Source: Prolixibacter denitrificans (lineage in GTDB: Bacteria > Bacteroidota > Bacteroidia > Bacteroidales > Prolixibacteraceae). From it: a stretch of 64,000 nucleotides of DNA. Below are positions 28,363 to 41,200 of the stretch, piece after piece (the first letter of the stretch is position 1; each line of letters begins with the position of its first letter). The stretch is from contig NZ_PYGC01000002.1 in assembly GCF_003014495.1 (NCBI RefSeq), positions 1-64,000 on the forward strand, in the 5' to 3' direction. A program made the position numbers and the translations under genes. The notes beneath the pieces were generated by a model. It saw only the letters and a list, made by a program, of their open reading frames with translations, made no database searches and was not told where the DNA came from.

Positions 28363-28393
28363 AAAGTCCCTGAGGTTTCGGGGACTTTTTTAT
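28363..28393 (+). terminator. Terminator of the YncE/phosphoesterase gene
   Basis: AAAGTCCC (28363-28370) and GGGACTTT (28381-28388) form an 8-bp stem followed by a T-run. Confidence 0.88.
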
Positions 28394-28522: not shown

Positions 28523-29236
28523 TCATTTCTCTACCCCCAACTCCTCATCAATCAACCCAATTAGCGCTTTGATATCCTCCAAAGCCTGGTTGTAGGCGCC
28601 TTCTTTGCCTTTGGTCAGGAAGAGGCTCTCGATGAGAATGTTTTGCAGCTCGACAGAATAGAGTTTTTCGGGTTTTATGATTTTCAGCGTGGCATAGTTG
28701 ATAACACCTTTCACTTCGGGCGACAGCTCGTTGATGATGATTTCCCAATGGATTTTCTCCAACATGTTCATGTAATTGTAGGTCACCTCCAGCTTTTGCA
28801 GCTGGCTGGTAATCCCCCGGTTCTTCAGTAGCTTCAATTCTCCACTGTTCACCAGTGTCTCATAGATGTTGCCGCTGCGTTGGAAATCGGAATACCGCGA
28901 CAGGTTCATGACGATGATAGCCAGTGTGTCTATTTGACTGCGGTCGTTGGCGAGCATCAGCCGGTTCGCATACTCGTACTGCCCCGAGTAGAAGTTGTTG
29001 AACGCCTGTACTCGAAGTAGCTCGTTCCGGTCATCAACTACCTGCCGCCGGATATTCTGATAGATTTTCTTCTCATTCGCCTTCTCAATGCGGCGGGTAT
29101 TCCAGTTGTTAATTTGCAGGGCAATCAGGATTCCGATGACCAGCAAGACAATCTCGCCCACTGCATACAGCAGGTATTTGCTGAATCGCTCACCGGAAAG
29201 AAATTCGAATCGCATTTTACGAAACACTCGGATCAT
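28523..29236 (-). CDS. DUF6090 family membrane protein
   Basis: A 237-residue protein. One hydrophobic helix near the N-terminus (YLLYAVGEIVLLVIGILIALQINNWN, about 20-46) is followed by a long, charged, helical domain. The GEIVLLVIGILIALQINNWN signature is diagnostic of DUF6090, a Bacteroidota family without known function. It is the last gene of a six-gene leftward operon, 35 bases behind the serine hydrolase. The start is preceded by the same 11-mer, CAACTAACCAA, that precedes the serine hydrolase. Confidence 0.82.
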   Translation of the reverse strand: MIRVFRKMRFEFLSGERFSKYLLYAVGEIVLLVIGILIALQINNWNTRRIEKANEKKIYQNIRRQVVDDRNELLRVQAFNNFYSGQYEYANRLMLANDRSQIDTLAIIVMNLSRYSDFQRSGNIYETLVNSGELKLLKNRGITSQLQKLEVTYNYMNMLEKIHWEIIINELSPEVKGVINYATLKIIKPEKLYSVELQNILIESLFLTKGKEGAYNQALEDIKALIGLIDEELGVEK

Positions 29237-29271
29237 GGTTATTCATTGGTTAGTTGGTTCAAACGCTTTGC

Positions 29272-30435
29272 TCATCCCATCGCAGCCAGGATGTAGTTTT
29301 TCAGAATCCGGTACTGCTTCACCTTCGAGGTGTAATTTCCCCCGGTGAACACCACCACGGCATTGAATTCAGGAATAACAACAATTTTCTGTCCGCCCCA
29401 GCCCAGGGCCGAAAACATCAGGCCGGTAGCCGAGTATTGCTTGGTCCACCACGTGTAGCCGTAACCGACTCTACCCAAATCCTCTCCGGGTACTTTGATG
29501 CTGTGGTTTCCGCCGTAAGGCTCCGCACAATGGCTCACCCAGTCGTCGGAGAGTAACTTATGCCCGTTTCCGTTCAGATGATCGAGCATCGCTACGCCAA
29601 TTTTCACCATATCGCGCGGAATCATCTTCACACCTCCGGCTGCGTGCACTTCGCCCGTCTGATATTTCAACCACCAGTCAAAGGTTTCGATGTTCAACGG
29701 CTTGAACAGGTACTCAGCCGAGAACTGATCCAGCGTCATCCCGCCGGTTGCATTCTTCAGGATGGCATTCAGAATTTCCATGTTTCCGCCGGAATAGTTG
29801 AAGTGCGCCCCGGGCGGTGCAAACAGCGGCGCTCCCAGGCTATATTCCACCGGAGTCATCCCGGAAAAGTAGATGGCAATCTGATCGTTTTTGATGCTAG
29901 TCAGCGGAGCGCCCCATTCGTCCCACGCCAGGCCCGAAGTCATGGTCAGCAGGTGCTCGATGGTGATGTACTCCCGGCCGGCCCTTTTCAGATGTTGGTA
30001 TTCCGGCAGATAATCGAATATCGACTGCTGCACGCTATCGATAAATCCTTTTTCGATAGCAATCCCGATGCACAGGGATGTGATGCTTTTGGTTACCGAG
30101 TGCACGCAATGTGCCATATCGCGGTCCCAGTTCACCCATTCTCCGTAATGTTTCGGTGCATCCCACTGGTATTGGTGTCCCGGGAAATATTCCTCCACCA
30201 CCAACTTACCGTCGCGGTAAATCAGCATCGAGTGTACTTCGCCATGGCGACCATCCCGAATCCGCTCAACAGCCCGCTTGATTAAGCGTTTATCCATGTT
30301 CACCTCATCCAGCGACCCGGTGACAAATCCATCGTTGATTTGCCCGGGAGGCTGGTAGGTGTACCGACTGGAAACCTGGCTCTGGCAACCAACAAACAGT
30401 GCCAGCATGGATAAGATGAGAATCGCTTTTTTCAT
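29272..30435 (-). CDS. Serine hydrolase lipoprotein (class C beta-lactamase fold)
   Basis: A 387-residue protein. The ATG at 30435 gives a lipoprotein signal (MKKAILILSMLALFVGC, Cys17); the frame reaches back to 30471 but would then overlap the small gene upstream. The nucleophile is Ser113 in SVTK (S113-x-x-K116). The tyrosine motif is in FNYSGGN, and a C-terminal GWGGQ segment replaces the usual HTG. Such proteins are DD-peptidase-like or esterase-like, and a few cleave beta-lactams. Envelope location follows from the lipobox. It is the fifth gene of the operon, 19 bases behind the 59-residue membrane protein. Confidence 0.88.
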   Translation of the reverse strand: MKKAILILSMLALFVGCQSQVSSRYTYQPPGQINDGFVTGSLDEVNMDKRLIKRAVERIRDGRHGEVHSMLIYRDGKLVVEEYFPGHQYQWDAPKHYGEWVNWDRDMAHCVHSVTKSITSLCIGIAIEKGFIDSVQQSIFDYLPEYQHLKRAGREYITIEHLLTMTSGLAWDEWGAPLTSIKNDQIAIYFSGMTPVEYSLGAPLFAPPGAHFNYSGGNMEILNAILKNATGGMTLDQFSAEYLFKPLNIETFDWWLKYQTGEVHAAGGVKMIPRDMVKIGVAMLDHLNGNGHKLLSDDWVSHCAEPYGGNHSIKVPGEDLGRVGYGYTWWTKQYSATGLMFSALGWGGQKIVVIPEFNAVVVFTGGNYTSKVKQYRILKNYILAAMG

Positions 30436-30454
30436 GGCTTGGTTAGTTGTCTGT

Positions 30455-30634
30455 TCACTTCCGTCCTCCAATGATGGCGGTAAGAATCAAGCCCAGGCCC
30501 AAACCTCCTAAAAGGCAACCAACAAAGGCCAATGCAGATGTTTGCAGGAAAAAGAATCCTACGCCTAAGCCCAGCAGTAAACCACCACCAGTTGCCCAGG
30601 TACTTTTGTCTTCAATTTTTACTTTTTCGTCCAT
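30455..30634 (-). CDS. 59-residue glycine-rich small membrane protein
   Basis: A short protein beginning MDEKVKIEDKSTWATGGG, with two hydrophobic, glycine-rich segments (GLLLGLGVGFFFLQTSALAFV and CLLGGLGLGLILTAIIGG) and ending GRK. It should form a small helical hairpin in the inner membrane with charged ends in the cytoplasm. A near-perfect Shine-Dalgarno, GGAGG, lies eight bases before the ATG, which is rare in this genome and supports the call. The 24-base gap to DUF4386 and the 20-base gap to the serine hydrolase place it in the operon. I do not recognise the family. Confidence 0.75.
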   Translation of the reverse strand: MDEKVKIEDKSTWATGGGLLLGLGVGFFFLQTSALAFVGCLLGGLGLGLILTAIIGGRK

Positions 30635-30658
30635 TTTTAGATCCTCCGTTTTGTTTTG

Positions 30659-31417
30659 TTATATCTGAATATTAGATGTGGAAGTATATATCTCTTGATG
30701 ATTGATATTCAACCCCCTGAACAAAAGCCAGAAGCCAACAACTAATTCAAAAAGACCGCTCGGAAACCAGAAGATTATTTGATTTATCGCCATGGCAGCA
30801 TATTGGGGAGCCAGAAGATACATCAGGGAGTGAATGAAAATGAGGGCAAATGAAAAGATTCCAAAAGCTGCCAATATCCGGGGGATATATCCTGACTTGA
30901 AAAACAAATAAGAAAATATCATCATGTCCAGCCCCAGAAATACCATAGGAACTGAAAATATGGCCATATGCGATTTGATAATTAGAGTTAACGGAACCTG
31001 CAACTGTTCAGGCGTAAACACTTTCAAATATGCTTCTCCATCTAAAAGATGCAAAGCAATGAAAACGACCAGTACAATAACTGCCGAGATAATGGCCTCG
31101 ACCAGCTTCAAAAGAAGCGCAAGCAAAGCAAGATTCCGGCCTTCCGGTTTGAGTATCCGATAGAGAGTCCACCCCAGTATGATCAAACCTACCGGCATGA
31201 GCAGTTCAATTGTCATACCCAGACGGAATAGTAGCTCACTTTCCAAAATATTATTAGCTGTCGCCGAGGCATTTGTTCCAATACTAAATCTGGAAAGTAT
31301 CAGAGTCCAATTAAGCGTAGGAACGATAAAGGCCAACAGGAACATAAAGCCTGCTATTTTTGCAGCCTTTTGTTGTGATGAATCGACGATTTGACTTGTT
31401 GTTTTATCTAAATTCAA
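30659..31417 (-). CDS. DUF4386 family membrane protein
   Basis: A 252-residue protein with about six hydrophobic helices. The lead KAAKIAGFMFLLAFIVPTLNW and LFRLGMTIELLMPVGLIILGWTLYRIL fit DUF4386, a family of unknown function. The start is a TTG at 31417, supported by a GGAGG Shine-Dalgarno eight bases upstream, with the same spacing as in the small gene after it. It is the third gene of the operon, between the oxidoreductase and the 59-residue protein. Confidence 0.78.
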   Translation of the reverse strand: MNLDKTTSQIVDSSQQKAAKIAGFMFLLAFIVPTLNWTLILSRFSIGTNASATANNILESELLFRLGMTIELLMPVGLIILGWTLYRILKPEGRNLALLALLLKLVEAIISAVIVLVVFIALHLLDGEAYLKVFTPEQLQVPLTLIIKSHMAIFSVPMVFLGLDMMIFSYLFFKSGYIPRILAAFGIFSFALIFIHSLMYLLAPQYAAMAINQIIFWFPSGLFELVVGFWLLFRGLNINHQEIYTSTSNIQI

Positions 31418-31472
31418 TTTGAATTCCTCCGTTTTCGGTTTATTAAGATTAATTGAGTACTTATTTTTTTGG

Positions 31473-32450
31473 TCATGATACCACGTTGATGATTACGTTT
31501 CCTTTTTTGTGGCCTTTATCGACATACCGGTGCGCCTCTACCATTTCGTCGAACGGATATACCCGGTCGATCACGGGACGAACAGCTCCGCTCTCCAGCA
31601 ACTCATTGAGAAACTTCAGATCACCTTCTTTAGCTATAGCTGTTTGGGTGATGATTTTTTTGCGACTGGTCAGCGAGGTCCAGATTCCCCGGATGGTCTG
31701 CATGAACCGCTGATCGGCCAGGATGTAAACACCGTCTTTTTTCAGTGAACGAATGCATTTCGTAAAAGGACTTCTTCCGACCGTATCGAAAACAATGTCG
31801 TAGGTTTCGCCAATCTTCGAAAAATCTTCTTGTGTGTAATCGACCACTTTGTCGGCACCAATGGATTTCACCATTTCGAGATTGGCCGTGCTGCACACGC
31901 CCGTTACCACTGACCCGAAGTATTTGGCCAATTGTACCGCATAGGTACCCACCGCACCTGATGCTCCGTAAATGAGAATCTTCTGACCTTTCTGCAGATT
32001 CGCTTTCCGCAGAAAATAGAGGGCGCCAATGCCCATAAACGGAATGGAAGCCACTTCCTGGTAAGTTTTCCCGGCAGGTATTTGGGTGATGATGCCATCT
32101 TCCGGTATTGTAAGGTATTCGGCATAGCAACCCAACTGCAACCATGACGGCGCCCCATACACCCGGTCGCCAGGCTGAAAGCGGGTCACTCCTTTGCCAA
32201 CCGATTCTATTTCACCGGCAAACTCAACGCCCAGAATGGAACTTTTGGGTTTCCTCCAACCCAACATATAACGGGATGGTATCCAAAACAGAAGATGTAC
32301 AACAAATCCCCGAATCCGGACATCGCCGGCGGTAACCGTTGTAGCATGTACTTTTACCAGTACTTCGTGATCGCGGGGGGAGGGCTTGGCGACCTCCTGA
32401 AACTGTAACACTTCAGGAGGTCCATACTTTGTGCAGACAATAGCCTTCAT
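31473..32450 (-). CDS. Zinc-independent MDR-family oxidoreductase (quinone reductase-like)
   Basis: A 325-residue medium-chain dehydrogenase/reductase. The N-terminus MKAIVCTKYGPPEVLQFQEVAKP and HATTVTAGDVRIRG, together with the absence of zinc-ligand cysteines, place it among NADPH:quinone-type reductases. The Rossmann motif is YGASGAVGTYAVQLAKYF, with the phosphate-side residues in CSTANLEMVKSIGADKVVDY. It probably reduces quinones or activated alkenes and is cytoplasmic. It is the second gene of the operon, 26 bases behind the acyltransferase. Confidence 0.88.
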   Translation of the reverse strand: MKAIVCTKYGPPEVLQFQEVAKPSPRDHEVLVKVHATTVTAGDVRIRGFVVHLLFWIPSRYMLGWRKPKSSILGVEFAGEIESVGKGVTRFQPGDRVYGAPSWLQLGCYAEYLTIPEDGIITQIPAGKTYQEVASIPFMGIGALYFLRKANLQKGQKILIYGASGAVGTYAVQLAKYFGSVVTGVCSTANLEMVKSIGADKVVDYTQEDFSKIGETYDIVFDTVGRSPFTKCIRSLKKDGVYILADQRFMQTIRGIWTSLTSRKKIITQTAIAKEGDLKFLNELLESGAVRPVIDRVYPFDEMVEAHRYVDKGHKKGNVIINVVS

Positions 32451-32476
32451 TAAGTTAGCCTGTTAGATAATTAAAG

Positions 32477-34195
32477 TTATGACTGTTGCAGCAGTTTTGC
32501 AATTTCAGGACGCGTGGTTTTGAGCCGTTCGTAGTCCAGTTTCAGCCCAAGCGGACCAAATACCTTCCCGAAATAATCGTAAATACCTTTCACCGCTTCG
32601 AAGGGAACCTGTACGGATTCGAGGGCTGTAGAGCCGGCGTTGTTTTTAATGGATGCATCAGCGCCATGCTCCAGCAGTGCCTTCACTATTTCCGTCCGGC
32701 AGAAGAAAGCAGCCGTGTGTAAAGGCGTGGAACCATCGTTGTTCCGGAAGTTGACATCGGCTCCCGCTTCAATCAAGGCCAGTGCCATTTCGTTCCTTCC
32801 AAAAGTAGCAGCCGTCATCAACGGACTGGAACCACCCGAGGATTCTTTCATATTCAGATCGGAACCGGATGCAATGTGCTGCTGTACCGCTTCCATATCA
32901 CCGAGGACGATGGCTTCGTGCAAGCTGACTTTTGGATTCGCTTTCGCTTCGACCGGTTTTGCCGGTTGCTCCGGCTCAGCAGTAGCTGATTTCTGACTTC
33001 CTATTACTATGAAGGCAAACAATGCGCCCACCATAACAGCACCTGTCGCCAGTTTTAAGGGAACATTCGGTTGGAAAACCCGGCGATAGACAATCACCAG
33101 CAGGTTACTCACCGCGTACGTCAAAATGGTCAATACGGCATATTTCACCAAAGCCGGAACCGGTGCATACATGAGTCCAACGGCGATCAAGCCCATCACG
33201 ATAACGTGAATAATGTACACCGAGTAAGAGCTTTTATTCAGTTCGTCCATCAACCAGTTGGTTTTATTCAGGCTAAAGCGGAACGCATAAATCAATACGT
33301 ACAGGAAACTCAACATCGAAATCACAGCCGACATATGGTAAAAAAGCCTGTCGACAAACGGGTCAACAAAGTAGAAGTTCCTTCCGGGATTGATGATATT
33401 GAAGAACAGGTTCAGCGCTACTGCCGTGAAAACCAGCAATGAGAAGGTTAATACCACATTTACTTGTATATACAGCTTTTTATTTTTTGTGCCCGATTCA
33501 AACACCTTCTGCTTGTTACAAAGGGTTCCCAACAGGAAGGACATAAAATAGATCAACAACCTTTCCCGCTGAAAATCGAAAAGCGCTGTATGCGTCCAGC
33601 CCATCAAGCCGGATTCGGAAATAACCATACCGTAAAGTACCCCGAAGACGAAGGTCAAAACCACACCCGTTTTCAGTGAAATTTTGAACGATAAGAGGTT
33701 GAGTTTGTACAGTGCCAGGTAAATCATCTGAAACAAAAACAGGATGGGTAAGAACCACAGCCAGTTCTGAGTCGGATTATTGGCAAAGAAGTACAGGTCG
33801 GTTCCGGCACGTTGGAACACGTGAAAATAGGTGTACCAGGCTTCCTGCGGCAGGCCTCTTGAGAAAAGAAAGATCGCTTTGTAAGCGGGAATCAAGGTTA
33901 ACACAGCAATCAGCCAGGGAAGCATAATCCGCTTCAGTTTCGACTTCACGAAACCCCACGTATTTTTGCTTTTTAAAGAATAAGGAATAAAGTATCCGGA
34001 GATGAAGAAGATACTGAACATGACAAAGAGGTCCAGATACATTCTGATTAAGCCAATGGAATTATTTTTCACCGGGTCGACAACAATCCAGTTGCCTTCG
34101 AGGGCTTGTTCATAAACCAATCCAGCGTGCAACAGCACCACCAGGAAGATGAGGAAGGTCCTCAGATTGTCCAAAAAATAGATTCGTGTTTTCAT
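32477..34195 (-). CDS. Membrane acyltransferase fused to ankyrin repeats
   Basis: A 572-residue two-part protein. Residues 1-about 375 are an acyltransferase-3-type membrane domain with about ten helices. It starts MKTRIYFLDNLRTFLIFLVVLLHAGL, where the family's catalytic-type histidine lies. Later it has FFISGYFIPYSLKSK. After a last helix (about 385-405) and a Pro/Glu/Ala linker, residues about 422-545 hold roughly four ankyrin repeats (SLHEAIVLGDMEAVQQHI, SPLMTAATFGRNEMALALI, TPLHTAAFFCRTEIVKALL). The transferase part usually acylates carbohydrates or lipids. The ankyrin part suggests a protein partner. It is the first gene of a six-gene operon and divergent from the AraC/TPR regulator. Confidence 0.88.
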   Translation of the reverse strand: MKTRIYFLDNLRTFLIFLVVLLHAGLVYEQALEGNWIVVDPVKNNSIGLIRMYLDLFVMFSIFFISGYFIPYSLKSKNTWGFVKSKLKRIMLPWLIAVLTLIPAYKAIFLFSRGLPQEAWYTYFHVFQRAGTDLYFFANNPTQNWLWFLPILFLFQMIYLALYKLNLLSFKISLKTGVVLTFVFGVLYGMVISESGLMGWTHTALFDFQRERLLIYFMSFLLGTLCNKQKVFESGTKNKKLYIQVNVVLTFSLLVFTAVALNLFFNIINPGRNFYFVDPFVDRLFYHMSAVISMLSFLYVLIYAFRFSLNKTNWLMDELNKSSYSVYIIHVIVMGLIAVGLMYAPVPALVKYAVLTILTYAVSNLLVIVYRRVFQPNVPLKLATGAVMVGALFAFIVIGSQKSATAEPEQPAKPVEAKANPKVSLHEAIVLGDMEAVQQHIASGSDLNMKESSGGSSPLMTAATFGRNEMALALIEAGADVNFRNNDGSTPLHTAAFFCRTEIVKALLEHGADASIKNNAGSTALESVQVPFEAVKGIYDYFGKVFGPLGLKLDYERLKTTRPEIAKLLQQS

Positions 34196-34251
34196 GACCG
34201 CATCGTTTAAATTTCGACTTTTGATTGACAGTGTAAAGTTCCGTCACACGC

Positions 34252-34340
34252 TGACGCAAAGCCTATCAACCATGCCGTCAATCGTATCAAGTTTGACGAG
34301 CACGCGAAAATTATGACGCAGGTATATCAATTATGACGCA
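34252..34340. promoter_or_regulatory. TGACGCA repeats between operon and regulator
   Basis: TGACGCA occurs at 34252-34258, 34314-34320 and 34334-34340. The last two lie in identical AATTATGACGCA 12-mers exactly 20 bp (two helical turns) apart. An additional inverted pair AAGTTTGAC (34289-34297) / GTCAAACTT (34371-34379) brackets them. They look like binding sites for the AraC-type regulator that starts at 34423. Confidence 0.5.
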
Positions 34341-34422
34341 AACGACGACGAAACGGCCTGAAATGGGGGTGTCAAACTTTATGCGTAACTTTTGCAAAAA
34401 TTACCTGATGCCTGACTGAATC

Positions 34423-36483
34423 ATGCCTGAATCCGGAACCATCGAGAACGATTTTTTAAGCAAAGCGACCGCCGCCATTGAAGAAAATTTGTCGAACGAG
34501 CAGTTCGGCGTATCGGAGCTGGCCCACGAAATGGGCATGAGCCGCTCCAATCTTCTCCGCAAGGTGAAAAAGCTAACCAACCTTTCGGCCAGTCAGTTTA
34601 TTCGGCAGATACGCCTCGAAGCTTCCATGGAGCTGCTGAAAGAAACATCACTGACCACATCGGAAATATCGTACCGGGTTGGATTTGGCAGCACTTCCTA
34701 CTTCATCAAATGCTTCCGCGACCACTACGGCTATCCGCCCGGCGAAGCAAAAAACAAGGCTTCCGCCGAAGAAGAACCGGTTCCGGAAGAACTTCCGAAA
34801 AAAAAGAGAAGTCTGGTTTGGCTGTGGGCTATTATCCTGGTTGTTATTACCGCCAACATCATCTATCTCATCGTTGGCCCGATGGCCGAAAAGCCCAAAA
34901 CACAGGAGAAATCCATTGCCGTGCTGCCTTTCATCAACGATAGCAACGACTCCACCAATGTCTACATCATCAACGGTGTGATGGAATCCATCCTCAACAA
35001 TCTTCAAAACATCCAGCATTTGCGGGTGATTAGTCGCACTTCCGTGGAAAAATACCGGCAGCATCCTGAGCTCATCTCCGAAATTGCCAAAGAGCTCAAC
35101 GTAACTTATGTGGTGGAAGGCAGCGGACAGAAAATCGGGGATCATATCCGGCTGAATGTGCAGCTGATTGAAGCAGATGGCGACAAACACCTATGGGCGG
35201 AACAGTACAACCGCCAAACGAAGGATATCTTCTCGTTGCAAAACGAAATCGCTAAAAACATCGCTGAGAAGATTGAGGTCATCATCACACCGGAAGAGCA
35301 AAAGCGCATAGACAAAGTGCCAACCCGGAATTTGGTTGCTTATGACTATTTTCTGAAAGCACAGGAATATTTCCACAAAGGCACCGGCGAAGGACTCAAA
35401 AAAGCCCTCCCCTTGTTCCAAAAAGCGGTGGAACACGACCCGACATTTGCCCGCGCCTACGCCGATATTGCCATTGCGTACTATTATCTGGACATTAGTC
35501 AAACCGAAAAACAATACGGTGCCGAAATCAATGAGAATGCCGACAAAGCACTGCTGTACGATTCGCAGTTGCCACAGAGTTTAATGGCCAAAGCGCTGTT
35601 CTATATGCACAGTAGGGAGTACAAACTGGCGGAACCCTACCTGCTGAAAGCGCTGGAATATCACCCCAATTCCGCCATGGTCATCAATCTTCTGTCTGAT
35701 TTTTATTCGACTTACTCACCCAATGCGGAGAAGTACCTGGAATATGCGCTGAAAGGTGCGCAACTGGATATTGCCGCCAATGACTCGGTGACCGCCAGTT
35801 TCATCTTCCTGCACATCAGCAATGCCTTTATTCAAAGCGGTTTTGTTGATGAAGCCGCAAAGTACATCAATCAATCGCTGGCCTATCATCCCGATAATCT
35901 CTACTCTCAATATGTGAAAGCGTACATTCAGTATGCCCGTAATCCAGACCTGCAAAAATTACGGACTCGTTTGATTGCTGTGCTGAAAAAGGATACCAGC
36001 CGGTTGGATGTTTTGCAGGAGGTGGGAAAAATCTGTTACTACCAGCGCGATTACGAAAGCGCGTATCGCTATTACCAACCGTTCATCGCCGCCAAAGAAA
36101 AGTATCACCTGGCGATTTTTCCGGGCGAAGATGCCAAAATTGGATTGGTATTAGCCCAGGTCGGACAAACCGAAAAATCAGCTGAATATTTGCAGAAATA
36201 CAAAGCTTTCGCTGAAGGCGACCAATCCATTTACAAGCACTTGAGCCTGGCGATGTATTATGCCTACGAAAACCAAACGACCAAAGCAATTGAGCAGTTG
36301 AAGCTTTTTTCAGAGCAACAGGACTACTACTACTGGGTGATTCTTTTCCTCAAAATCGATCCACTGCTCGATAATATGAAGGACCATCCTGAAGTCCGGA
36401 AACTTCTTCATACCATCGACATCAACTTCCAAAAGCATCACCGGGAAATGAAGGCTTCGCTGGAAGAGAAAGGGGTAATTTGA
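34423..36483 (+). CDS. Membrane-anchored AraC-type regulator with TolB-like and TPR domains
   Basis: A 686-residue one-component sensor. Residues 13-112 form an AraC-type double helix-turn-helix (VSELAHEMGMSRSNLLRKVKKLTNL and TSEISYRVGFGSTSYFIKCFRDHYGYPPGEAK). A basic linker leads to a single transmembrane helix (130-152). Residues 162-288 form a TolB-like/FlgO-like domain (SIAVLPFINDSNDSTN, LNVTYVVEGSGQKIGDHIRLNVQLI). TPR-like repeats fill 300 to about 680. The DNA-binding end is thus cytoplasmic and the TPR part periplasmic. It is divergent from the six-gene operon and most likely controls it through the repeats between them. Confidence 0.9.
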   Translation: MPESGTIENDFLSKATAAIEENLSNEQFGVSELAHEMGMSRSNLLRKVKKLTNLSASQFIRQIRLEASMELLKETSLTTSEISYRVGFGSTSYFIKCFRDHYGYPPGEAKNKASAEEEPVPEELPKKKRSLVWLWAIILVVITANIIYLIVGPMAEKPKTQEKSIAVLPFINDSNDSTNVYIINGVMESILNNLQNIQHLRVISRTSVEKYRQHPELISEIAKELNVTYVVEGSGQKIGDHIRLNVQLIEADGDKHLWAEQYNRQTKDIFSLQNEIAKNIAEKIEVIITPEEQKRIDKVPTRNLVAYDYFLKAQEYFHKGTGEGLKKALPLFQKAVEHDPTFARAYADIAIAYYYLDISQTEKQYGAEINENADKALLYDSQLPQSLMAKALFYMHSREYKLAEPYLLKALEYHPNSAMVINLLSDFYSTYSPNAEKYLEYALKGAQLDIAANDSVTASFIFLHISNAFIQSGFVDEAAKYINQSLAYHPDNLYSQYVKAYIQYARNPDLQKLRTRLIAVLKKDTSRLDVLQEVGKICYYQRDYESAYRYYQPFIAAKEKYHLAIFPGEDAKIGLVLAQVGQTEKSAEYLQKYKAFAEGDQSIYKHLSLAMYYAYENQTTKAIEQLKLFSEQQDYYYWVILFLKIDPLLDNMKDHPEVRKLLHTIDINFQKHHREMKASLEEKGVI

Positions 36484-39738: not shown

Positions 39739-40746
39739 ATGACCACCAAAGTGCCTACAGTTGTTAGCGGAATCCGCTCAACCGGGAATCTTCACCTGGG
39801 AAACTATTTCGGGGCGGTAAAGAATTTCGTGCAGATGCAGCATGACATGAACTGCTATTTTTTCATTGCCGATATTCACTCGCTGACCACGCACCCACAC
39901 CCCGATCACCTGTACCAAAATGTACGGCAGGTACTTTCGGAATACCTGGCCTGCGGACTCGATCCGGAAAAAGCCACACTGTTTATACAAAGCGATGTTC
40001 CGGAAATTACCGAAATGTACACTTTCATGAACATGAATGCGTACCTGGGCGAGTTGGAAAGAACGACTTCATTTAAAGATAAGGCGCGGAAGCAACCCGA
40101 TAACGTGAATGCCGGCCTGTTGACTTACCCGGTGCTGATGGCGACCGACATTATCATCCACAAAGCACATTTTGTCCCGGTAGGAAAAGATCAGGAGCAA
40201 AACCTGGAAATGGCGCGTACATTTGCCCGCCGTTTCAACCGGATGTACAAGGTGGAAGAGTTCCCGATTCCCAAACCTTTCACATTCGACGGAAAGGATA
40301 TGATCAAAATACCCGGACTGGACGGTTCAGGAAAAATGGGTAAATCGGAAGGTAATGCCATTGGTTTAGCGGAAGATCCGAAAAGCATTCGCAAGAAAGT
40401 GATGCGCGCTGTAACTGACGCTGGTCCGACCGAGATGAACCAGAAAAAGCCGGAACCCATTCAGAACCTGTTTACCCTGATGGACGTGGTTTCGACGCCT
40501 GACACCGTGAAACATTTCGACGATGCTTACAACAACTGCTCCATCCGTTATGGCGATATGAAGAAGCAGCTGGCCGAGGATATTATCAACTTTACAACGC
40601 CCATACGTGAACGAATTGAGGACATCGTGAAGGATGATGCCTATCTGGGAAAAGTAGCCCAAATGGGCGCTGAAAAGGCCCGTGCATCGGCTTCTCAAAC
40701 ACTGAAGGAAGTGCGTGAAATCATCGGTTTCCGGAAATTCTACTAA
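39739..40746 (+). CDS. trpS: Tryptophanyl-tRNA synthetase
   Basis: A 335-residue class I synthetase that charges tRNA-Trp. The HIGH-like motif is TGNLHLGNY (15-23), and the KMSKS loop appears as GKMGKSEGN (about 197-205). NVNAGLLTYPVLMATDI and VPVGKDQEQNLEMAR are typical of TrpRS. Length is standard. It has its own -7 element and a good terminator. Confidence 0.97.
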   Translation: MTTKVPTVVSGIRSTGNLHLGNYFGAVKNFVQMQHDMNCYFFIADIHSLTTHPHPDHLYQNVRQVLSEYLACGLDPEKATLFIQSDVPEITEMYTFMNMNAYLGELERTTSFKDKARKQPDNVNAGLLTYPVLMATDIIIHKAHFVPVGKDQEQNLEMARTFARRFNRMYKVEEFPIPKPFTFDGKDMIKIPGLDGSGKMGKSEGNAIGLAEDPKSIRKKVMRAVTDAGPTEMNQKKPEPIQNLFTLMDVVSTPDTVKHFDDAYNNCSIRYGDMKKQLAEDIINFTTPIRERIEDIVKDDAYLGKVAQMGAEKARASASQTLKEVREIIGFRKFY

Positions 40747-40949: not shown

Positions 40950-41200
40950 GGGAAACCGTGAAATCGATCGGTGGCAGACTTTCCCGGTATGGGAAACCAT
41001 GAAACCGATCTGTGGCAAACTTTCCCGGTATGGGAAACCATGAAACCGATCTGTGGCAAACTTTCCCGGACATGGGAAACCGTGAAATCAATCCGTGGCA
41101 AACTTTCCCGGTATGGGAAACCGTGAAATCGATCCGTGGCAAACTTTCCCGGTATGGGAAACCGTGAAATCGATCCGTGGCAAACTTTCCCGGATGCGGG
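40950..41200. repeat. 41-bp tandem repeat array, six units
   Basis: Units start at 40950, 40991, 41032, 41074, 41115 and 41156; four are 41 bp, and the third and sixth are 42 bp. Each begins GGGAAACC and contains GTGGCAAACTTTCCCGG near its end. Each junction forms an inverted repeat, TTTCCC-GGTAT-GGGAAA. Two subtypes exist: units 2 and 3 have CATGAAACCGATCTG, and units 1 and 4-6 have forms of CGTGAAATCGATCCG. The array is bracketed by ATGCGGGA at both ends, and the right edge forms the hairpin GCGGG/CCCGC (41196-41215). There are no spacers, so it is not a CRISPR. Confidence 0.92.

Follow-up and report, generated by a model that had tools for sequence, protein, structure and literature searches.

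The stretch of DNA analysed here, the window, comprises positions 1 to 64,000 of contig NZ_PYGC01000002.1 of Prolixibacter denitrificans, and the system in question is a gene cluster (28523 to 36483) in which a membrane-anchored regulator faces an operon headed by the gene of an AT3-family acyltransferase fused to ankyrin repeats. Judged by its recurrence, the conserved unit in Bacteroidota is the pair of regulator and acyltransferase(-ankyrin), and this pair is the real core of the cluster. The reading we favour, with a probability of about 0.6, is that of a one-component membrane switch, with a promoter dedicated to it, which would drive a periplasm-directed acyl-transfer module. The core and the gap between its two genes contain the following features:

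34423 to 36483, plus strand: regulator of 686 residues, with a helix-turn-helix (HTH) domain, HTH_18, at residues 33–110, one transmembrane (TM) segment at 134–152, and a CadC-like TolB/tetratricopeptide repeat (TPR) domain, placed in the periplasm, at about 160–686
34327 to 34340, minus strand: operator copy 1, TGCGTCATAATTGA, recognized by its recurrence across loci
34307 to 34320, minus strand: operator copy 2, TGCGTCATAATTTT, 20 bp from copy 1, recognized in the same way
34245 to 34300, minus strand: degenerate operator copies 3–5, at +40, +61, and +82 from copy 1, from the mean position weight matrix (PWM) score over 49 loci
34232 to 34240, minus strand: promoter-like AACTTTACA box of putative function, 100 bp from copy 1 and 45 bp before the ATG
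32477 to 34195, minus strand: AT3 acyltransferase-ankyrin protein, with AT3 at residues 1–375 (approximate), an extra TM segment at 380–398, and the probably periplasmic ankyrin part at about 420–572

An alignment scan of public genome contigs gave 83 relatives, 80 of which were kept; 75 acyltransferase rows came down to 57 distinct loci once identical sequences had been removed (window included), with near relatives abundant among them and several cut by contig ends. The initial annotation had described the regulator as facing the operon, and this is how it lies in 50 of the 57 loci, on the strand opposite to the acyltransferase gene; it very probably controls the operon. Three genomes, G001, G002, and G003, are assigned to the genus of the window: the core pair is kept in G001 (regulator 96% identical) and G002 (90%), as it is in G012 (63%), and in G003 neither the acyltransferase (E ≤ 0.001) nor the ankyrin part (E ≤ 1e-12) found a counterpart. 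Searching the 140 genomes of the family with the ankyrin part found matches at E ≤ 1e-12 in 42, which fall in 9 of 23 genera, and the divergent pair is seen on contigs labelled Draconibacterium, Maribellus, Mangrovibacterium, Sunxiuqinia, Lewinellaceae, and Cytophagales, among others. Distances between the proteins run in parallel, with correlations of 0.85 for regulator and AT3 (n = 46), 0.84 for AT3 and ankyrin (n = 48), and 0.93 for AT3 and the serine hydrolase encoded behind it (n = 17), each reached in 0 of 999 permutations; pairwise values within these four range from 0.83 to 0.95, AT3 and the MDR oxidoreductase of the operon give 0.28 (n = 10; 61 of 999 permutations), and all of these correlations contain shared species history.

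The gap between regulator and acyltransferase carries a recurring word, TGCRTCATAAWTTA. Allowing at most one mismatch in its 13 bases, TGCRTCATAAnTT is found within 400 bp upstream of the acyltransferase start in 49 of the 50 regulator-bearing loci, and two copies stand exactly 20 bp apart in 30 of them; 200 first-order Markov simulations gave a mean of 0.3 of 50 loci with the word and 0 of 50 with the exact pair. The exception, L111, has its operator pair farther upstream than 400 bp. Tandem copies of TGCRTCATAATTTA, up to five at steps of 20–21 bp, form an array that ends at the promoter-like box: the PWM offsets +40, +61, and +82 have z values of 4.0, 3.5, and 3.7 (next best offset 2.5), which contrast the offsets of one mean profile over 49 related loci and are not independent probabilities, and a ACTTTACA-like box lies at +100 from copy 1 in 37 of the 49. 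At up to 3 mismatches, the pair of copies 1 and 2 has a single occurrence in the 4.73 Mb genome of the window (reversed-pattern control, 0), and the background of the operator pattern is 15 matches outside the gap in 818 kb. Furthermore, where a related regulator faces an ankyrin gene that stands alone, a slightly wider pattern found at least one copy in 14 of 17 loci, and no operator site was found in 39 loci, among the 80, that have no regulator beside AT3, many of which encode distant AT3 proteins. Such a layout is that of an activator dedicated to its own locus and served by an extended array, to which the regulator would bind. A sigma-70 scan found 7 sites as against 13.2 in shuffles, none of them in this gap.

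In the regulator, Pfam recognizes HTH_18 (72.7 bits) and TPR repeats, and the TM scan finds a single hydrophobic segment (134–152) after the HTH domain; among regulator gene calls with 48% identity or more in the TolB/TPR part, which were not deduplicated, 79 of 79 have a TM-like segment at the corresponding position. Since one helix joins the cytosolic HTH domain to the TolB/TPR domain, the latter must be periplasmic, and the sensor part that had been proposed to lie in the periplasm is thus supported by the topology of the chain. An AlphaFold2 (AF2) model of the regulator from 19 sequences has a mean predicted local distance difference test score (pLDDT) of 85.6. Among the solved structures to which VIA compared this model (residues 156–487) the periplasmic domain of CadC takes the top four rows, with Z of 21.8–22.5 over 277–293 residues at 3.6–4.2 Å (best row: Z 22.5, 286 residues, 3.9 Å), generic TPR proteins rank below it (Z ≤ 19.5), and Foldseek matches the sensor to 3ly8 at E 1.9e-7. 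By this match the sensor is akin to that of CadC or resembles it; what it responds to does not follow from the fold.

Thirteen of 63 distinct regulators additionally carry a class III cyclase motif, in a segment of about 190 residues added between HTH domain and TM helix, so that these relatives unite DNA-binding, cyclase, and CadC-like sensor domains in a single chain; by Pfam, the window regulator is without a cyclase domain. In the three that were scanned (L173, L187, and L206) the added segment is a Guanylate_cyc domain, and the other ten are known by the motif only. By eye, the cyclase-bearing regulators keep the segment GDGVNxASRIE and, in FTDIxGYT and GDG, the aspartates, and the position presumed to hold a lysine that selects adenine has Q, or K in L208, the residue roles being presumed; a regular expression for the adenine-binding position found no match.

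Enzymes of the AT3 family move an acyl group across the inner membrane. In the window protein Acyl_transf_3 scores 90.5 bits (gathering score 31) and is followed by ankyrin repeats, and the motif R12-X10-H23 is invariant in alignments of 15 and of 18 proteins, which suggests that catalysis is needed. K86-x-x-R89 is likewise invariant and is the nearest candidate for the RXXR motif expected on the cytoplasmic face of TM3. The extra helix at 380–398 precedes the ankyrin domain, and the ankyrin repeats are found where an SGNH domain sits elsewhere. In PMC9833829, R-X10-H is described as absolutely conserved in AT3 proteins and located in TM1, and an 11th helix as placing a fused C-terminal domain in the periplasm. 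The stand-alone ankyrin relatives look secreted: a lipobox expression matches 16 of 22, and inspection by eye of proteins that it missed finds a lipobox in L145, over-long N-terminal calls in L150 and L155, and a signal-peptide-like start with no cysteine in L139, L153, and L160. The ankyrin domain is thus probably extracytoplasmic; for the TolB/TPR domain of the window, the periplasmic place is based on the order of HTH domain and TM helix in the regulator together with these secreted ankyrin relatives. An AF2 model of the acyltransferase-ankyrin protein (mean pLDDT 67.3, predicted template modelling score 0.51) is poor in the membrane part and was given no weight.

Behind the core, the operon and its end are made up as follows:

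31473 to 32450, minus strand: MDR-family oxidoreductase without TM segment, cargo (Pfam, NCBIfam)
30659 to 31417, minus strand: DUF4386 membrane protein with a TTG start and a GC content of 0.40, cargo (Pfam, 140 bits)
30455 to 30634, minus strand: p59, a 59-residue membrane hairpin peptide with two hydrophobic segments, cargo
29272 to 30435, minus strand: serine hydrolase lipoprotein of class C beta-lactamase fold (Pfam, 112 bits)
28523 to 29236, minus strand: DUF6090 protein, one TM segment at 22–40 and then a soluble, probably periplasmic part (Pfam, TM scan)
28363 to 28388, no strand assigned: terminator-like inverted repeat, situated after the operon and before the gene that converges on it (terminator scan, plus strand)

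All seven open reading frames (ORFs) of the initial annotation are present, and its gaps of 26, 55, 24, 19, and 35 bases are exact when the start of the serine hydrolase is set at ATG 30435. The assignments stand clear of the Pfam gathering scores for the serine hydrolase (Beta-lactamase PF00144, 112.3 bits vs 27), DUF4386 (140 vs 27.6), and DUF6090 (34.6 vs 23.5); the MDR protein, a medium-chain dehydrogenase, has ADH_zinc_N_2 and ADH_N above theirs, and p59 has no Pfam family above the cut-off. Hydropathy agrees with the segments listed: one in the regulator, two in p59, one in DUF6090, and the extra helix before the ankyrin part. G001 and G002 have a sequence like this inverted repeat as well; overall, the terminator scan gave 10 sites, no more than shuffles do (12.7).

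What follows the acyltransferase was compared over the 57 contigs, window counted, between the same strand downstream of AT3 (358 kb) and, as control, either strand beyond the regulator (200 kb). The serine hydrolase, at ≥40% identity, is found downstream in 20 of the 57 loci and in 0 in the control, the MDR protein, at the same threshold, in 10 as against 1, p59 in 10 as against 0, and DUF6090 in 6 (two truncated copies included) as against 0; scaled for length, every cargo family except DUF4386 remains enriched. Homologues of the serine hydrolase keep the catalytic Ser in 18 of 18 distinct sequences and the Lys of SxxK in 17 of 18, the N-terminus looks lipoprotein-like by eye, and relatives in the PDB include Lsa45, 6-aminohexanoate-dimer hydrolase, Est-Y29, a carboxylesterase, and a transesterase. 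As these include esterases and a transesterase, the hydrolase could transfer or remove an acyl group. An acyl-transfer and hydrolysis module had been suggested from the layout, and it does recur as a set, with the serine hydrolase as the commonest follower. Homologues of p59 (42–89% identity) occur in 9 of the 56 other loci; L113 and L114 combine serine hydrolase, p59, MDR, and DUF4386, and L112 has serine hydrolase, DUF6090, p59, and MDR, interrupted by a methyltransferase. Outside the window, no locus among the other 56, some of them incomplete at contig ends, has its gene order or all five cargo genes together. In the comparison with related genomes that the initial annotation put forward as a test, the full order fails (0 of 56), but core and gene set pass; the fixed six-gene operon that it proposed gives way to a core with five exchangeable genes behind the acyltransferase. 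These comparisons mark the MDR protein, DUF4386, p59, and DUF6090 as accessory genes that are exchanged within a recurring set.

Concerning translation starts, the leaders of DUF4386 and p59 are alike (31418 to 31447 and 30635 to 30664 in the window), with AAAACGGAGGA before the start codon, and those of the other operon genes differ.

The congeners allow the exchange itself to be seen. From the cargo, G001 and G002 retain just an intact p59 and the end of DUF6090, some 40 codons long (tblastn); window positions 32468 to 30652 (AT3-ankyrin to p59) and about 30470 to 28641 (p59 to the DUF6090 tail) are absent from both, and the junctions are the same or nearly the same in the two. In the acyltransferase-ankyrin gene (1719 positions) window and G001 share 1588 identities, window and G002 1495, and G001 and G002 1489, so that the window is closest to G001, as it likewise is in the regulator and in the gene beyond the operon. 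In the p59 segment (170 positions) the corresponding values are 134, 142, and 161; the DUF6090 tail of 105 bases shows no such contrast (90, 92, and 87). The simplest reading of these identities is that the block behind the core was swapped by recombination in one of these lineages, and the GC content of DUF4386 (0.40, vs 0.467 in the window) fits a foreign origin. At the spot behind the core, G001 has an HTH_3 gene with two unassigned neighbours (L031, 2418–3689), G002 a TIR-domain gene with an unassigned ORF of 244 residues (L032, 6009–7620), and G012 a HigB-like toxin with an HTH_3 partner (L033, 10428–11084).

The gene set exists in three ARRANGEMENTS of one gene set: with the AT3-ankyrin fusion, as in the window (A), as separate genes (B), and with another regulator (C). 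In arrangement B a related regulator faces an ankyrin lipoprotein, followed by AT3 and then a serine hydrolase, sometimes with DUF4386 or DUF6090; among 17 such loci AT3 comes next in 13, and a serine hydrolase lies within the next three genes in 16, the remaining locus, L148, stopping at a contig end. Arrangement C, in L139 and L160, consists of the other regulator, serine hydrolase, ankyrin, serine hydrolase, MDR, and DUF4386; L153 is nearly so and cut, and L049, which belongs to the genome of the window, lacks ankyrin and has the regulator followed by serine hydrolase, MDR, and DUF4386. L153 and L160 came from the ankyrin search, L049 from the regulator search, and L139 was picked for its clustered ankyrin, MDR, and DUF4386 matches, so in these four loci the genes searched for are present by choice. 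The regulators of L139, L160, and L049, which were scanned, have the TolB/TPR part first, the HTH last, and no TM segment by hydropathy, and because of this a TolB/TPR domain alone is no proof of a periplasmic place. Lone operator-like matches near regulators of this type (L049 9477 and L139 10132) were dropped as too few over background. In L160 a gene resembling TonB receptors and a second DUF4386 gene follow.

Adjacent separate genes for AT3 and then ankyrin, in the order of the fusion, are found in L204, L219, and L223, with no regulator match or operator adjoining the two. L204 is labelled Aenigmatarchaeota and L219 Acidobacteriota; the archaeal label of L204 is probably due to misbinning.

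In the reading that we favour, the periplasmic domain of the regulator would sense an envelope condition, as its architecture, the divergence, and the site suggest; the HTH domain would then occupy the operator array and activate the acyltransferase operon. AT3 would pass an acyl group through the inner membrane. Periplasmic partners, the serine hydrolase being the likeliest, would dock on the ankyrin domain, and this beta-lactamase-fold hydrolase would transfer or remove the acyl group, the role of SGNH domains in other AT3 systems. An outside signal that switches on an acyl-transfer and hydrolysis module had been proposed at the outset; this appears broadly right, the fixed six-gene unit apart. 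The ankyrin domain might perhaps also dock the TPR domain of the regulator, the state of the enzyme being fed back to the promoter as with LysP and CadC, whose interplay is described in PMC3096576; such feedback is speculation by analogy, and it is consistent with the topology only. A complete self-monitoring acylation, in which an ankyrin scaffold recruits the serine hydrolase and reports to a CadC-type sensor (some with a cyclase) that sets the five-copy operator, we propose tentatively and consider unlikely as a whole. If true, it would be one answer to whether AT3 proteins that lack SGNH need a partner protein.

Several observations weigh against the favoured reading. Many of the loci are near relatives, so locus counts are not independent. 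In four loci (L205, L208, L209, and L211) regulator and site stand beside an AT3 gene that stops before any ankyrin part, and since the two persist there the ankyrin part is not required for the switch; L212, cut by a contig end, is not countable as ankyrin-free. The serine hydrolase is found in just 20 of the 57 loci, several being incomplete at contig ends. For DUF4386 there is no enrichment downstream (3 of 57 vs 2 in the control). As some regulators carry a class III cyclase, the periplasmic domain may act beyond DNA binding. Lastly, L182 has the site and no regulator match in the 602 bases upstream of AT3, and L175 has an intact tandem site (about 2680–2720) with just a 33-residue regulator match (2314–2412) alongside, through either natural loss of the regulator or rearrangement; these two weaken the linkage of regulator, acyltransferase, and site only slightly, and in L183 and L209, which have no nearby regulator gene call, a regulator match exists, farther off or cut.

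A narrower account would have the regulator govern the acyltransferase-ankyrin gene alone, as a core of two, with the five genes behind it as unrelated passengers at an insertion-prone spot. The other genes (HTH_3, TIR, and HigB) that G001, G002, and G012 hold there agree with it, as do the confinement of the exact order to the window among 57 loci, the different histories of the p59 block and the core, and the weak tracking of AT3 by MDR distances. The enrichment behind AT3 of serine hydrolase (20/0), MDR (10/1), p59 (10/0), and DUF6090 (6/0), the return of the same families behind related regulators in other arrangements, and the single strand with gaps of 19–55 bp all speak against it, and we regard this account as unlikely. 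It has also to be asked whether the AT3-ankyrin protein is foremost a trigger enzyme or co-sensor that, by analogy with LysP and CadC, would report the state of the membrane or of the acyl donor to the regulator, catalysis being secondary. The CadC-like sensor, its regular pairing with AT3, the prediction that ankyrin and TPR domains share one side of the membrane, and the CadC–LysP precedent would suit such a role; the invariance of R-X10-H in both alignments suggests that catalysis is needed, and the four switch-bearing loci have no ankyrin part, so that we think this role quite improbable.

Acylation of a surface glycan by the operon, changing phage adsorption, would make the cluster a means of phage defence. 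According to PMC9833829, acylation by AT3 proteins affects sensitivity to bacteriophages, and the spot behind the core is occupied in relatives by a TIR protein or by genes like those of toxin-antitoxin systems; the window proteins match no PADLOC model (E ≤ 0.001) save for ankyrin-repeat matches of the acyltransferase-ankyrin protein, and we hold defence to be very improbable. On the PADLOC result a known defence system was rejected.

The switch that we favour resembles several known systems in part. Like CadC, the regulator has one TM segment and a periplasmic domain of the same fold; unlike CadC, its DNA-binding domain is HTH_18/HTH_AraC and not the winged helix of CadC/ToxR (OmpR-type), its TPR part is longer, some relatives have a class III cyclase, and its neighbours are acyltransferase genes. 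The NCBIfam CadC model covers residues 110–413 at 53 bits (cut-off 400), and strict membership in CadC/ToxR was rejected because the DNA-binding domain is of another type. The hybrid two-component systems (HTCS) of Bacteroides also join a membrane sensor and an AraC-type HTH in one chain, and their direct repeats, as predicted in PMC3878776, have a period of 20–21 bp (16 + 5, 12 + 9, and 14 + 6), as in the window array; in the window, however, the HTH is N-terminal, there are up to five copies rather than two, and no susC/susD-like gene is among the seven. With no histidine kinase or receiver domain among the regulator's 20 Pfam matches, HTCS was rejected.

With the AT3-SGNH proteins OafB and OatA the window protein shares R-X10-H and the extra helix before the C-terminal domain; it differs in having ankyrin repeats rather than SGNH, and its candidate transfer partner is a separate hydrolase of beta-lactamase fold. 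Glucan succinyltransferases OpgC/MdoC, stand-alone AT3 proteins according to PMC9558356, provide the best NCBIfam match of the AT3 part; membership in MdoC/OpgC NF003014 was rejected at 57.3 bits (cut-off 338), as was 3-succinylated cholic acid synthase NF045925 at 73.8 bits (cut-off 800). The hydrolase is an SxxK serine hydrolase like other hydrolases and transesterases of class C beta-lactamase fold, and is distinguished by being a lipoprotein encoded behind an AT3 gene. No description of the gene set was found in open-licence PubMed Central, among the matches listed, and a literature query there for DUF4386 gave no match; within this scope the earlier remark that no described system has this gene set stands. 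The parts belong to known families or are unassigned, and it is the combination of a CadC-like sensor on an AraC domain, an optional cyclase, a five-copy array, and an AT3-ankyrin protein that is new.

The locus supplies a candidate regulator, operator, and target operon for the AT3 acyltransferases of Bacteroidota. Whether AT3 proteins without SGNH act alone or with a partner, SGNH or otherwise, is a question posed in a review (PMC9558356), and the locus makes it testable. Additionally, with the periplasmic fold of CadC on an AraC domain, and in relatives also with a class III cyclase, transcription and nucleotide signalling could share a receptor.

Elsewhere in the window, positions 40950 to 41193 hold a tandem array of a 41-bp unit in 5.9 copies with 93% matches, which lies behind the ORF at 39739 to 40746, presumably a tryptophanyl-tRNA synthetase.

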